Source: Halostagnicola larsenii XH-48 (GTDB lineage: Archaea > Halobacteriota > Halobacteria > Halobacteriales > Natrialbaceae). Taken from it: 64,000 nt of DNA. Below the pieces are notes generated by a model. That model saw only the letters and a program-made list of their open reading frames with translations. It was not told where the DNA came from and did no database searches. Below, piece after piece: positions 13,446 to 18,567 of this stretch; positions within the stretch are counted from its first letter, which is position 1, and each line of letters starts with the position of its first letter. The stretch spans positions 1,798,001 to 1,862,000 of the forward strand of contig NZ_CP007055.1 in assembly GCF_000517625.1 (NCBI RefSeq). The letters run 5' to 3'. The translations under genes were made by a program, and so were the position numbers.

Positions 13446-13529
13446 GATTTCGCCGTCATAACGTCCCTCTCGAGACCCTGTCGCGCGGAAGAACGAGGAC
13501 TTTTGGTGGAGCCTACCGCCCTCGTAGAC

Positions 13530-14942
13530 ATGACACTCCTGGCGTTCGACGGTCGAATGGGTGCCAGCGGCGATATGCTCCTCGCCGCCCTTCTCGACGC
13601 CGGCGGGGACCCGACGGTCCTCGAGCCAGTCGAAGACGCGCTGTCTCTTGAGTACCGAATCGACGAGACGACGAAGTGTGGAATCACCGCGACGACGGTG
13701 GACGTGGTATTGACCGACTACCAGGACGAAACGGACTCCGAAGCGGGTCTCGAGGGGGTCGACGATCACAGCCACGGCGGCGACAACAACGATCGCGATG
13801 GCAGCGGTCACAGCCACGACGACAACAGCAACGGTCACGACGGCGGCAGTCACACCCACGACGGTGACGGCAACAGCCATGCCAATCACGAGCACAGCCA
13901 CGACCACGGCGACGACGCGACTCACGCCGAGGGCCACGGCCCGCATCGTAGCTACCTCGAGGTCTGCGAAATCGTCGAGGAGATGGGCCTCGACGCGGCA
14001 GTCGAACGCGACGCGCTTGCCATCTTCGAACTGCTGGGCGAAGCGGAAGCGAGCGTCCACGGCGAGAACCTCGAGGAGATCCACTTCCACGAGGTCGGAG
14101 CCGACGATGCCATCGCGGACGTCGTGGGGGCCGTCCTGTTGCTCTCCGATCTCGAGCCCGACCGCGTCGTCACCACGCCGCTTGCGACCGGCGGCGGAAC
14201 GGTCTCGATGAGCCACGGCCGGTATCCGGTTCCGACCCCGGCGGTCGTCGAACTCGCCGAGCGCGCTGACTGGTCGCTTCGGGGCGGACCGGTCGAAACC
14301 GAATTACTCACTCCAACGGGGGCGGCGATTCTCGGCCACGTCGCCGAGGGTGTCGATTCGCTCCCCTCGCTCTCGCTCGAGGAGTCCGGCTACGGCGCCG
14401 GCGGCTACGATCTGGACCCGCACCCGAACGTCCTCCGCGCACTGGTCGGCGAGGCCGACGCCGCGGGCCCGCTCGTGCGCGACGACATCACGGTCCTCGA
14501 GACGAACCTCGACGACGCGACGCCGGAAGTGCTGGGCGGACTGCAGGAAACGCTCACTGAGGCGGGCGCTCGAGACGTCTCGATCCTTCCCGCGACGATG
14601 AAAAAGTCCCGCCCCGGTCACCTCGTGAAGGTCATCTGCAAACCCGAGAACCGCGAGCGCGTGACCCGAGCGCTGGCCGAGGAAACCGGAACGCTCGGCA
14701 TCCGCGAAACGGGGGCGACCCACCGGTGGATCGCCAACCGGGAGTTCGAAACCGTCGCGCTCGAGCGCGACGGAGACCGCTACGAGGTCGGCGTGAAAAT
14801 CGCGAGCGACGCGGACGGGGCCGTCTACGACGTGAGCGCGGAGTACGACGACGCGGCGGCGGTGGCCCTCGAGACCCGGTGGTCGGTTCGGGAGGTGCTT
14901 CGACGCGCGGAAGAAAAGGGGCGAGAATCGCTCGAGGAGTGA
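13530..14942 (+). CDS. larC: nickel pincer cofactor biosynthesis protein LarC (single-ORF form)
   Basis: A 470-residue LarC, which inserts nickel into the pyridinium dithiocarboxylate mononucleotide to make the nickel-pincer cofactor of lactate racemase-type enzymes. The N-terminal domain starts FDGRMGASGDMLLAALLDAGG; LEEIHFHEVGADDAIADVVG and PTPAVVELA follow; the C-terminal LarC2 region has LETNLDDATPEVLGGLQETL and MKKSRPGHLVKVIC. In lactobacilli the two halves need a programmed frameshift; here they are one continuous frame. Residues about 80-139 form a His/Asp/Gly-rich insert, probably a metal reservoir. No larA, larB or larE gene is in the window. ATG 13530 begins MTLLAFDG; a TATA-like ACTTTTGG lies about 27 bp upstream. 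Confidence 0.93.
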   Translation: MTLLAFDGRMGASGDMLLAALLDAGGDPTVLEPVEDALSLEYRIDETTKCGITATTVDVVLTDYQDETDSEAGLEGVDDHSHGGDNNDRDGSGHSHDDNSNGHDGGSHTHDGDGNSHANHEHSHDHGDDATHAEGHGPHRSYLEVCEIVEEMGLDAAVERDALAIFELLGEAEASVHGENLEEIHFHEVGADDAIADVVGAVLLLSDLEPDRVVTTPLATGGGTVSMSHGRYPVPTPAVVELAERADWSLRGGPVETELLTPTGAAILGHVAEGVDSLPSLSLEESGYGAGGYDLDPHPNVLRALVGEADAAGPLVRDDITVLETNLDDATPEVLGGLQETLTEAGARDVSILPATMKKSRPGHLVKVICKPENRERVTRALAEETGTLGIRETGATHRWIANREFETVALERDGDRYEVGVKIASDADGAVYDVSAEYDDAAAVALETRWSVREVLRRAEEKGRESLEE

Positions 14943-14976: not shown

Positions 14977-15525
14977 CTACTCAGTACTGACGTTGACTTC
15001 CCCGTCCTCGCCGTCTTCGCCGTCTTCGGCGACGGTGTCTCCTCGATCGATATCGACGTGTTCCTCGCCGGTCACGACCGTACTGCTCTGGTTCGTGGAC
15101 GTGTGCTGGCTCGTCGAACCGTTCGACTCGGTGCTCTGCGACGAGGTGCTCGTCGCGACACTGTGGGAGACGACGCGCTCGTCTTCCGTATCCCAGACGA
15201 TCGTCCGTACCGTCGAGGTGACGGTGGTTCCGTCGTCGCTCGATTCGTTCGTCTCGATGGTAATGTTCAGCATGGACTCGTTTTCCACTTCTTCGCACTC
15301 GATCTCGGCGTCTTCGGGCAGTTCGTCGACGGAGACGTTGGCATCGATGGATTCGTTCGACGCGTTGAGCGCGTCGTAGCACTCGTCGCTCAGATTCATT
15401 TCGTTCTCACTATGGGTATCATCACCTGTCGAGTTGTTGATTCCGGAGACAGCGACAATACCAACACCTGCTATCACTACTACGCAGACGACCAGTATCA
15501 CTCCTGTCGTTGGTATTCGGTTCAT
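14977..15525 (-). CDS. secreted or membrane-anchored Ser/Thr/Asn-rich protein
   Basis: A 182-residue exported protein of unknown family. Residues about 8-27 are strongly hydrophobic (VILVVCVVVIAGVGIVAV) and could be a signal peptide or N-terminal anchor. The rest is acidic, with two cysteines (in DECYDALN and ECEEVENES) and many N-x-S/T glycosylation sequons (NSS-, NES-, NVS-, NQSS-like). The C-terminus is low complexity and ends with DGEDGEDGEV repeats. It is the first of three consecutive exported proteins, and its start is followed on the same strand by the curli-like companion gene's upstream unit. Confidence 0.62.
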   Translation of the reverse strand: MNRIPTTGVILVVCVVVIAGVGIVAVSGINNSTGDDTHSENEMNLSDECYDALNASNESIDANVSVDELPEDAEIECEEVENESMLNITIETNESSDDGTTVTSTVRTIVWDTEDERVVSHSVATSTSSQSTESNGSTSQHTSTNQSSTVVTGEEHVDIDRGDTVAEDGEDGEDGEVNVSTE

Positions 15526-15705: not shown

Positions 15706-16314
15706 TTACACTTCGATGTCGAGCTCGAGCAGCTCTATAATCTCGTCAAGGGAATCCTGAATACCAGTGAGGTCAGTAGTTCCGTCATCTCCACCATCGT
15801 CAGCTCCGCCATCGTCAGCTCCACCATCTTCAACGGTGGTTTCCTCTTCGAATTCCTGCTCGGCCTCGACATCAGCGTCGCCGCCGTCGCCGCCGTCGCC
15901 GGCGTTGGCGTCACCGCTGACGTCGCCGACTTCAGCCGAGGAGTCAGCGTAGCCAGTCTGTTCCTGTGCGTTCTGCTGGTTCACGTTCTGGAACTGGCTC
16001 GGTCCAGCGTCCCCACCATCGTCGTACTTGTTGTGGTCGGGGTTGTCAGCAGGACTCGAACTGCTCGCTGCCTGCGTGTTGGAGTTCGAAGCATCCTGCT
16101 CTTGGTCAACGATTGCTGGACCGGTTTCGACGTCTACGTTGTGGCCCTCGTGCGTCGCATCGCCGCCGTCGCCGCCGTCGCCGCCAACTCCGACACCGAT
16201 ATTGTTGGCGGATTCATTGGTGTCGTTCTGTGCCGCTGCTGTCCCGGCGAACCCCATGAACATGAGGCTGCCGACCAGTGCGAATACCATCAGCGCTGTG
16301 AATGTGCGTTTCAT
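15706..16314 (-). CDS. secreted Gln/Asn-rich protein with curlin-like half-repeats
   Basis: A 202-residue protein with a clear Sec-type signal peptide (MKRTFTALMVFALVGSLMFMGF...AAAQ, cleavage near 28). The mature part has GGDGGD tracts and two segments, DQEQDASNSNTQAA and QFQNVNQQNAQEQTGYA, matching the Q-x2-Q-x-N-x-N-x-Q pattern of the large protein at 17038-18567. The C-terminus has acidic, Gly-rich repeats (GGADDGGADDGG) and a hydrophobic amphipathic helix (LDEIIELLELDIEV). By analogy with curli, it could be a minor subunit, nucleator or anchor; that is inference. It is divergent from the larger gene across 723 bp. Confidence 0.65.
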   Translation of the reverse strand: MKRTFTALMVFALVGSLMFMGFAGTAAAQNDTNESANNIGVGVGGDGGDGGDATHEGHNVDVETGPAIVDQEQDASNSNTQAASSSSPADNPDHNKYDDGGDAGPSQFQNVNQQNAQEQTGYADSSAEVGDVSGDANAGDGGDGGDADVEAEQEFEEETTVEDGGADDGGADDGGDDGTTDLTGIQDSLDEIIELLELDIEV

Positions 16315-17037
16315 ATTTGGTTAGTGCATCGTCCGGGCATACACGCGCGGACCGCCGAAACCGGGTCGTCACCAGCGCACCGCGTTTCTGGATTCGGCAC
16401 CAGTCTCGAGTGCGCGGTTCCTCGCGGGATCTCGACCGATCCGAGCGATGCCACGGCGCGTTGCCCGGTTGGTTCCGACCATCAGCGCCCGTATTAACCC
16501 GAATTACAGTTTCAATGATCTATTGTCGATTGTGTGGCCGTTCGACCAACGTTACATTTGCTTTCGAAGTTGTCAGTCACTGTATCACCAATTTATCGTC
16601 GGAACGGACAGCCTATCGACAATTTCGCGTCTATATCTCGTGCTTACTCCCGCGGTGTAGTCGGCGTAATCTCGCATACACACGGTCCGAAACAGGTGTC
16701 GGTCCGGTTTTCAAGACTGTTCCTCAATCCGGTGGGTCACTGACTCGTGGATGTTACCGCCTACGTTCTCGAGACGGTGAACGAAACGGGCGGAATTCGG
16801 CGTGTTTTCGTCTGTCACACCGTCTCGGAACCGCCTAACCCGGACGATTTCGCCGGTAGTAGTCACCTTCGTAACCGGCCCAAAACTCGAGCGGCGCGCT
16901 CGGGGCGGTAACGACCTTGTTCTCTATTACAACCTACAGATAACAAAGACACTATTCGGAAAATGATGGTTCGCACCGTGAAGATGCAGTAAGAAAAGAC
17001 CCTCACAGGGCATTTGAAACGATAACAAAAATACACG
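16315..17037. other. 723-bp divergent intergenic region between two Gln/Asn-rich surface proteins
   Basis: More AT-rich than its surroundings. The open frames here have atypical composition and I accept none as a gene. It must hold promoters for both divergent genes; the AT-rich run GATAACAAAAATACAC ends next to the ATG at 17038. The length leaves room for several operators or a non-coding RNA, but I see no strong palindrome. Confidence 0.5.
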
Positions 17038-18567
17038 ATGATATCACGATCACAACTTACGACAGTTCTCGTCGCCGCGATGCTCGCGCTCTCGATGACG
17101 GGTGCGGCCCTCCCCGCGACCGCACAGGAGGATTCCGGCGAGGATGACAGAACGATCCACACGCTCGAGGACGGAGAAGACCTCTACTTCGTCTTCGGCG
17201 CGGATCTCGGCGATCAATCAGTAGAAGAGTACGTCGACGAACACTTAGAGAGCGAAGCCAGCGCCGCCTCCGACGGCTCGAGTCCGGCTGCGGATATCGT
17301 CCAGTATCAGGACGTGAACCAGACGAACGTCGACATTCAGGAAGGCGCAGCCTCAATCTCCATCGACGGCGGCGACGCGACCGCTATCCAAGAGTCTCAA
17401 CAGACGAACGAGAACACCCAGGAGGGCGAAGCCATCTCCGAGAACCAGAACCTCGAGGAGCAAAACGTCCAGTTCGAGGATGTCGGTGACGTCTACTTCC
17501 TCTTCGGCGATGACAACACCCAGCGCTTCGACGGCTGGGCGGTTGCCGGCGAAAAAGGAGGCGATCACGACAAGAAACACGACAAGGAGATAAAGTACTC
17601 CGAAGCGACCGTCACGCAGCTACAGCAGGTCGATCAGGCGAACGTCAACGAACAGAGCGTCGCCTTCTCGATCGCCGAAAACGGCAGTGACGCGCTCTCG
17701 ATTCAGGACAGTTCCCAGCTTAATTCCAACTCCCAGAGCGCGGTCGCGAACGCGCAGAACGTGAATCCGAGCACCGCTCAAGGCGGTACCCAGGTCGCCG
17801 CGTCGGACCTGGATCAGGCTCAGGAGAGTATGCAGACCAACATCAACCAGCAAGGCTTCGCCGTCGCGATCGCGATCGGCAACGAATCCACGGCGACGTC
17901 GATCCAGACGACGGACCAGTCGAACATCAACGAACAAGTCGGAAGCGCCTACTCGGCGTCCGTCCTCGAAGCGACGGAGGGCATGAACGTCGCGTCGGCG
18001 AGTACGAACGGCGGCTCCGACGTGGTCGAAACCGTTAGCGACAAACAGAAGACCGGCCACGACAAGAAGAAAGGAAGCGACAATACCGACGCGAGCGTCA
18101 GCCAGTACCAGAGCGTCGACCAGCTCAACCTCAACCAGCAGAGCTCCGCGGTCGCAATCGCACTCAACGGCAGCGAAGCGACTGCGATCCAGATCTCTCA
18201 CCAGGAGAACCACAACGCACAGGTCGGCATCTCACAGGCGCTGCCGGCGAACGAGGCCGGATCGTCACCGGGCGTTCTCTACAGCGAGGAGACGACCGTC
18301 TCGCTCAAGGGAGACAACGCGTCGGACAACCCGATCATGACGATCGACTCCGACGTTGGCGGCCAACAAAAACAGGACGTCGCCTATCAGCCCGATGCGG
18401 ACGTCGATCAGTACCAGTCGCTCTTCCAGGAGAACTTAAACGAACAGCAGGCTGCGTTCGCAGTTGCCGAGGATGGCGGTGAAGCGACATCGTCGCAAGT
18501 GAGCATGCAGTCCAACGAGAACGTTCAGTTCGGCTCCGCGATCGCTCCGTCTGCGATCCCGGCATAA
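17038..18567 (+). CDS. secreted curli-like repeat protein (five Gln/Asn/Ala modules)
   Basis: A 509-residue protein with a Sec-type signal peptide (1-30, ending ATAQ). The mature chain has five ~48-residue modules at about 87-134, 190-240, 257-308, 352-401 and 454-503. Consensus: Q-x2-Q-x-N-x-N-x-Q-x2-A-x-A-x-A-x3-G-x2-A-x-x-x-Q-x3-Q-x-N-x-N-x-Q-x-G-x-A, two strand-turn-strand units per module. The Gln/Asn ladder and alternating small residues resemble curlin (CsgA) repeats, which fold as stacked beta-solenoid amyloid. Spacers hold Lys/His-rich strings (near 174-187 and 336-349). Probable role is extracellular fibre or biofilm matrix; this is inferred. No CsgG-like exporter is visible nearby. 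Confidence 0.72.
   Translation: MISRSQLTTVLVAAMLALSMTGAALPATAQEDSGEDDRTIHTLEDGEDLYFVFGADLGDQSVEEYVDEHLESEASAASDGSSPAADIVQYQDVNQTNVDIQEGAASISIDGGDATAIQESQQTNENTQEGEAISENQNLEEQNVQFEDVGDVYFLFGDDNTQRFDGWAVAGEKGGDHDKKHDKEIKYSEATVTQLQQVDQANVNEQSVAFSIAENGSDALSIQDSSQLNSNSQSAVANAQNVNPSTAQGGTQVAASDLDQAQESMQTNINQQGFAVAIAIGNESTATSIQTTDQSNINEQVGSAYSASVLEATEGMNVASASTNGGSDVVETVSDKQKTGHDKKKGSDNTDASVSQYQSVDQLNLNQQSSAVAIALNGSEATAIQISHQENHNAQVGISQALPANEAGSSPGVLYSEETTVSLKGDNASDNPIMTIDSDVGGQQKQDVAYQPDADVDQYQSLFQENLNEQQAAFAVAEDGGEATSSQVSMQSNENVQFGSAIAPSAIPA

Follow-up and report, generated by a model that had tools for sequence, protein, structure and literature searches.

Organization of the locus

The window (the whole 64,000-nucleotide stretch of Halostagnicola larsenii XH-48 DNA that was analysed) contains an open reading frame on the plus strand that starts with ATG at position 17038 and encodes a protein of 509 amino acids, with an N-terminal hydrophobic signal ending near ATAQ. 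The five-module gene is present as a single copy in its own genome, and a small gene for a second secreted protein lies upstream of it on the opposite strand. The features of this divergent pair are listed below, with residue numbers referring to the 509-amino-acid protein.

15706-16314, minus strand: gene for a Q/N-containing secreted protein of 202 aa, which may be a minor subunit or partner; a gene of this type is kept at this position in 41 of 44 Sec-type loci
16315-17037, no strand: divergent intergenic region shared by the two genes, 723 bp; in three Halostagnicola genomes it has strongly conserved blocks next to each of them
17038-18567, plus strand: five-module secreted repeat protein gene, putative major fibre subunit, 509 aa
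17038-17127, plus strand: Sec-type signal peptide, residues 1-30; hydrophobic N-terminus kept in Sec-type homologues
17128-17289, plus strand: N-terminal region, residues 31-84, carrying the conserved motifs DLYFVFGADL and EEY; F53 and G54 invariant
17290-17445, plus strand: module 1, residues 85-136; HMM E value 1e-17; predicted strands 84-109 and 113-136
17446-17604, plus strand: linker 1, residues 137-189; conserved DVYFLFG...FDGW motif and Lys/His-rich end
17605-17760, plus strand: module 2, residues 190-241; HMM E value 1e-15; predicted strands 185-214 and 218-244
17761-17802, plus strand: linker 2, residues 242-255 (14 aa); 10-75 residues in homologues
17803-17961, plus strand: module 3, residues 256-308; HMM E value 7e-16; predicted strands 251-280 and 285-311
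17962-18090, plus strand: linker 3, residues 309-351, Lys-rich; predicted disordered (pLDDT <50); 35-83 residues in homologues
18091-18246, plus strand: module 4, residues 352-403; HMM E value 3e-21; predicted strands 349-375 and 380-403
18247-18396, plus strand: linker 4, residues 404-453; mostly disordered by prediction
18397-18552, plus strand: module 5, residues 454-505; HMM E value 1e-20; predicted strands 453-477 and 482-505

The signal peptide would be cleaved near ATAQ/ED, and the protein stops 4 residues past module 5 without an anchor. Module limits were set by a homologue profile, and the module HMM was built without the genus Halostagnicola. This HMM found all five modules, with domain E values from 1e-15 to 3e-21, while the best E value from 1,000 shuffled sequences was 0.65. 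The motif QxNxNxQ occurs 9 times in the mature sequence, compared with a mean of 0.03 and a maximum of 2 in 10,000 shuffles. The open reading frame, the signal, the module HMM and the shuffle controls thus confirmed the exported five-module protein proposed in an earlier sequence-only reading, whose module limits (87-134, 190-240, 257-308, 352-401 and 454-503) lay close to those of the profile. The same reading had described Lys/His-rich spacers between the modules, which held for linkers 1 and 3 only; linker 2 lacks both Lys and Arg, and linker 4 is not enriched in Lys. Neither Lys nor Arg occurs anywhere in the modules of the window protein, and Lys-rich linkers were seen again in homologues from other species.

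Conservation of the modules

Across homologues the module has a fixed length of 52 residues (53 in module 3, whose extra residue is present in every homologue) and almost no indels, whereas the linkers vary from 10 to 83 residues and show about half the conservation of the modules. Each module carries paired Q/N ladders with a spacing of 27 residues (28 in module 3) rather than 22. With residues numbered from the first Gln of QxN (position 0), conservation falls on Q-6, Q-4, Q0, N2, N4 and Q6 in strand A and Q23, Q27, N29, N31 and Q33 in strand B, the latter shifted by one in module 3. Most of these 11 Gln/Asn positions are 90 to 100% conserved in each of the five modules (N4, 79 to 91%), and they are accompanied by Ala at positions 9, 11, 13, 19 and 21 and by Gly/Ser at the turn. 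Since the conserved residues alternate, each strand has one conserved face; their parity shifts between Q6 and A9, where strand A is also interrupted in a two-module structural model. All five modules keep the same Gln/Asn positions, as expected for ladders between stacked layers.

Pairwise dN/dS values against two other Halostagnicola genomes were 0.08 and 0.14 within the modules and 0.14 and 0.18 outside them. The five-module gene is under purifying selection, which is stronger in the modules than outside. These results bear on the reading of the gene product as a low-complexity secreted protein, in which the modules would be unstructured or would just be linkers or ligand-binding segments, with polysaccharide, metal or DNA bound through the Lys/His spacers. 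The strong composition bias, the K/H runs in the linkers and the Lys-rich tails of one group of homologues exported by the twin-arginine (Tat) route would suit such a protein. However, the Lys-rich spacers are variable and missing from linker 2, and it is the modules, not the linkers, that form the conserved, fixed-length and confidently structured part, so we consider this explanation very unlikely. The sequence-only reading had named a repeat found only as low-complexity linkers in homologues as evidence against itself, and the homologues show the opposite.

Distribution and variants of the family

A protein search of 61 related genomes found the family in 30, all of one same family. A profile scan of genome contigs with the family alignment gave 64 loci in Natrialbaceae (many genera), Haladaptatus, Halomicrococcus and Halegenticoccus, and the groups carrying the family are Natrialbaceae, Haladaptataceae and Halegenticoccus. 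The five-module gene was present in 62 of 293 genomes drawn from the order, all in three families, and among 393 genomes from the phylum, a sparse sample that leaves room for rare cases elsewhere, the module was found only in Natrialbaceae. Exactly five modules were counted in all 63 large homologues tested. In Natronorubrum bangense, identical large genes are found on the chromosome and on a plasmid (L036 and L037), with the same neighbour matches at the same distances, which may represent a recent whole-locus duplication or transfer, or an assembly artefact.

Searches of Pfam, NCBIfam and PDB sequences returned nothing for the modules. The sole part of the family that was recognised is the PGF-CTERM sorting tail of eight homologues (NCBIfam), and plasmid copies are annotated as "hypothetical protein" or "PGF-CTERM sorting domain-containing protein". 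Judged by these sequence searches, this is an unannotated haloarchaeal protein family. A viral origin was also considered and rejected, as neither the IMG/VR viral contigs nor the phage records contained a relative of the five-module protein.

In a tree of the family, a Natrialbaceae clade with Sec signals, including the window protein, is separated from a Haladaptatus-centred clade within which Natrialbaceae members are also found. In this sister group the Sec signal is mostly replaced by a twin-arginine signal, and Lys-rich tails are frequent. The eight PGF-CTERM ends are spread over both clades. That a single unvarying five-module core is secreted without an anchor, tethered by sortase or exported by Tat suggests that it acts at the surface or outside the cell. 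The neighbours of the Tat-type copies included no conserved accessory gene; apart from the five-module gene, the largest cluster to recur there seems to consist of antisense frames of that gene. Seven Tat-exported homologues (L075, L076, L078, L080, L081, L084 and L086) have long C-terminal Lys-rich tails of the KKGKKDKK type, which are unusual for acidic haloarchaeal proteins and could bind DNA, polysaccharide or an acidic surface.

A conserved divergent gene for a possible partner

The follow-up newly identified the upstream divergent gene, which resembles a minor-subunit gene. A gene for a small (about 100 to 200 aa) secreted Q/N-rich protein was located upstream and on the opposite strand in 41 of the 44 testable Sec-type loci, and in none of the 44 was such a gene found downstream or on the same strand as the large gene. 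Many of these small proteins hold one recognisable module, with E values down to 1e-15. The module HMM does not detect the window small protein (15706-16314), since in this genus the module is too diverged for it. With phmmer its mature part gave only weak matches (1e-6 to 1e-4, with biased composition) to small proteins from other genera, and it was assigned mainly by its position. The neighbours on the flanks of the block in Natrialbaceae are genes for LarC, an AAA ATPase, a DUF460-like protein and a RadB-like protein, and common descent therefore accounts for part of the constancy of the pair. Loci L070-L072 have different flanking genes and still keep the pair.

The region between the two genes, which probably holds their promoters or leader, contains long blocks at about 16900-17025 and 16430-16520 that are nearly identical in three Halostagnicola genomes. 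A possible hairpin, CCCTCACAGGG, lies in it just upstream of the large gene, and together with the conserved blocks it may form a regulatory leader.

Other genes in and around such loci were also recorded. On a Haladaptatus salinisoli chromosome (L093:7908-9849, plus strand) five small secreted proteins are encoded in tandem with no five-module gene among them; four have one complete module and one has about half. In the window, a second small secreted protein of 182 aa, rich in Ser, Thr, Asn and acidic residues, is encoded at 14977-15525 on the minus strand and was found in one other Halostagnicola locus only (L032) among the loci examined. The LarC-type nickel insertion protein (PF01969) at 13503-14942 on the plus strand has a His/Asp/Gly-rich insertion of ~60 residues (residues ~87-150).

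The protein is not a curlin

Because of its Gln/Asn ladders and Gly turns, the protein had been compared with curlin, and secretion and a gene pair like that of a major and a minor subunit add to the resemblance to a true CsgA-family member with a diverged repeat. However, the curlin repeat profile PF07012 had no match in the H. larsenii genome, although the E. coli positive control matched, and none at an E value of ≤1 in the 62 homologues. Profile-profile alignment by hhalign against the CsgA and CsgB repeats gave probabilities of 0.8% and 0.2%, respectively. The CsgG exporter (PF03783) is absent from the genome by profile search, in agreement with the earlier observation that no bacterial-type exporter accompanies the gene, but this would be expected anyway since archaea have no outer membrane. 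The geometry also differs, with 52-residue modules and linkers of up to 83 residues in place of end-to-end coils of ~22 residues, and the proposal that each module represents two curlin units did not agree with the structural model, which gives one arch of two long strands per module. Profile HMM, profile-profile alignment, exporter search and module geometry all speak against membership of the curlin family, which we reject, and we regard a diverged curlin as extremely improbable.

True curlin-repeat proteins do occur in the class and are clearly different. Among 292 class-level genomes PF07012 matched in two only, both from one Natrialbaceae genus of Haloterrigena type. These secreted proteins with 8 to 10 repeats (L126:1300-2037, minus strand, genome G031, and L127:994-1617, plus strand, genome G260) gave E values of 1e-36 to 1e-45 and have no relationship to the window family. 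Dueholm et al. in 2012 (PMC3521004) mentioned a single archaeal protein whose repeats resemble those of curli; it may be of the same kind.

Predicted structure and fold matches

The structure prediction suggested by the sequence-only reading was carried out with AlphaFold2 on a 62-sequence alignment. The mean pLDDT was 64 and the pTM 0.58, but within the modules, each of which was predicted as a pair of beta strands of ~24-30 residues, the pLDDT was about 85 to 96. The signal, the N-terminal region (residues 31-84) and most of the linkers had values <50. A model of two modules only reached a pLDDT of 70, and this drop in confidence would be expected if the layers stabilise one another. Equivalent positions are identical from module to module, which suggests that the modules stack in parallel. 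AlphaFold2 readily yields beta-solenoids for repetitive sequence.

When the full model was compared by Foldseek with 350,542 PDB chains, only three matches had E values of ≤10, namely FapC (9nqd, 0.23), CsgA (8c50, 1.4) and FapC (9u4u, 7.7), none of them significant. With the two-module model FapC again came first (0.08) and the E. coli CsgA fibril fifth, also without significance, in a list that mixed in ordinary beta-helices such as SufB and ice-binding proteins. With E values of 0.08 to 8 and very low TM-scores for both models, the matches to FapC, whose layers have a Greek-key fold, and to CsgA are a pointer to a possible fold, not proof of it.

A candidate extracellular fibre

The analysis established the secretion signal, the five invariant modules with their Q/N conservation, the purifying selection, the predicted long strands and the conserved two-gene divergent locus. 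The earlier suggestion of an amyloid-like archaeal fibre protein is plausible and gained support from the protein family, the structural model and the conservation of the partner gene. We put the chances at about even that the five-module protein is the major subunit of a convergent, FapC-like, self-stacking archaeal extracellular fibre, with its polymerisation, amyloid nature and matrix role all inferred. As such it looks like an unrecognised counterpart of bacterial biofilm amyloid fibres.

In the mechanism we propose, the protein would be exported by Sec and would fold or assemble outside the cell, with each 52-residue module forming one layer. Strand A (AxVxQxQxVxQxNxNxQxxAxAxA) would pass through a tight turn (xxGS) into strand B (AxAxQxxxQxNxNxQxGxAxAxN), and the two would lie face to face as a beta-arch around a core of Gln/Asn and Ala. 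Five such layers, stacked in register, would make a rod with amide ladders of identical Gln/Asn side chains running along its axis and the disordered linkers looped out on the outside. Through its open first and last layers, molecule could stack on molecule to give a fibre that would serve in the matrix of a biofilm or cell surface much as FapC or CsgA does. We propose a minor-subunit role, as nucleator, cap or adaptor, for the small divergent protein, which has no more than one module.

The main rival is a discrete beta-solenoid that does not polymerise, an adhesin, stalk or S-layer-associated spacer, in which the five modules would form one closed beta-stack. The N-terminal region (residues 31-84) is a possible end cap, and its conserved LYLVFGAD segment would suit a capped single domain. 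A count of exactly five in 63 of 63 homologues is no less compatible with a discrete folded protein than with an open-ended polymer, and the two-module Foldseek matches include SufB and ice-binding proteins. The PGF-CTERM anchor of eight homologues would tether each subunit to the cell, which counts against a fibre. On the other hand, most Sec-type homologues, the window protein included, end a few residues past module 5 and so would leave one edge open, a capped monomer does not readily account for the small secreted partner with its one module, and the best fold matches, although non-significant, are amyloids. We therefore consider a closed solenoid possible but rather doubtful.

If the protein does form fibres, the two genes could make up an independently evolved haloarchaeal functional amyloid, with a five-layer major subunit, a divergently encoded one-module minor subunit, Sec or Tat export without a dedicated exporter, and archaeosortase-tethered variants. 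We advance this fuller reading only tentatively.

Congo red and thioflavin T both stain biofilms of Haloferax volcanii (PMC4180959), which makes an archaeal matrix amyloid plausible; this species is not among the loci carrying the five-module family. In the literature consulted we found no identification of the fibre protein behind the dye staining of haloarchaeal biofilms, and the defined archaeal amyloids that we found were methanogen sheaths. As a fibre candidate the family is widely distributed and testable; its layer motif is clear, it has a partner gene, and free, anchored and Tat-exported variants occur naturally. If the proposal is correct, it could explain amyloid-dye staining in biofilms of the haloarchaea that carry the gene, and it would mean that archaea arrived separately at the principle of FapC and CsgA, in which imperfect repeats stack and form amide ladders, and that this principle works in near-saturated salt with no need for an outer-membrane exporter.

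Comparison with known systems

The window protein shares with functional amyloids the character of a secreted imperfect-repeat subunit with conserved Gln/Asn at equivalent positions. FapC has fixed-length imperfect repeats, variable linkers and conserved Asn/Gln networks, with one cross-beta layer per repeat (PMC12392863). The window protein is likewise secreted, and its imperfect repeats are few, fixed in length and marked by conserved Asn/Gln, with variable disordered linkers between them; as with FapC and FapB, a separate, putatively minor repeat protein is encoded at the same locus, and FapC was the top, though non-significant, Foldseek match of both models. However, the window family has five repeats with 52-residue QxNxNxQ pairs, whereas FapC has three GN-rich repeats of about 39 residues, and no FapC chain was matched when the PDB was searched with family and module sequence profiles. 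The putative minor protein differs in having one module and in being encoded divergently. No fapABCDEF-like neighbours were seen, the conserved neighbours being LarC, the AAA ATPase, and the DUF460-like and RadB-like proteins, and in haloarchaea, in contrast to Pseudomonas, there is no outer membrane for the protein to cross.

Other archaeal systems are more distant. The Haloterrigena-type curlin-repeat proteins come from the same archaeal class and are secreted Q/N repeat proteins, but their tandem repeats have 19 residues (NDADVDQRNxAxVxQDGKN), and they form a separate family at a separate locus. The sheath amyloids of Methanospirillum and Methanosaeta (MspA/SH), compared by literature description only, are also archaeal, extracellular, amyloid-like protein polymers, but from other organisms and with another architecture. 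E. coli CsgA has five repeats with stacked Gln/Asn ladders and Gly turns, appeared among the Foldseek matches and is encoded with a minor subunit, CsgB. Its 22-residue repeats follow each other end to end without linkers, however, whereas the module of the window protein is predicted to be one long arch. Overall, the combination of fixed modules with long variable linkers is the design of FapC rather than that of CsgA.
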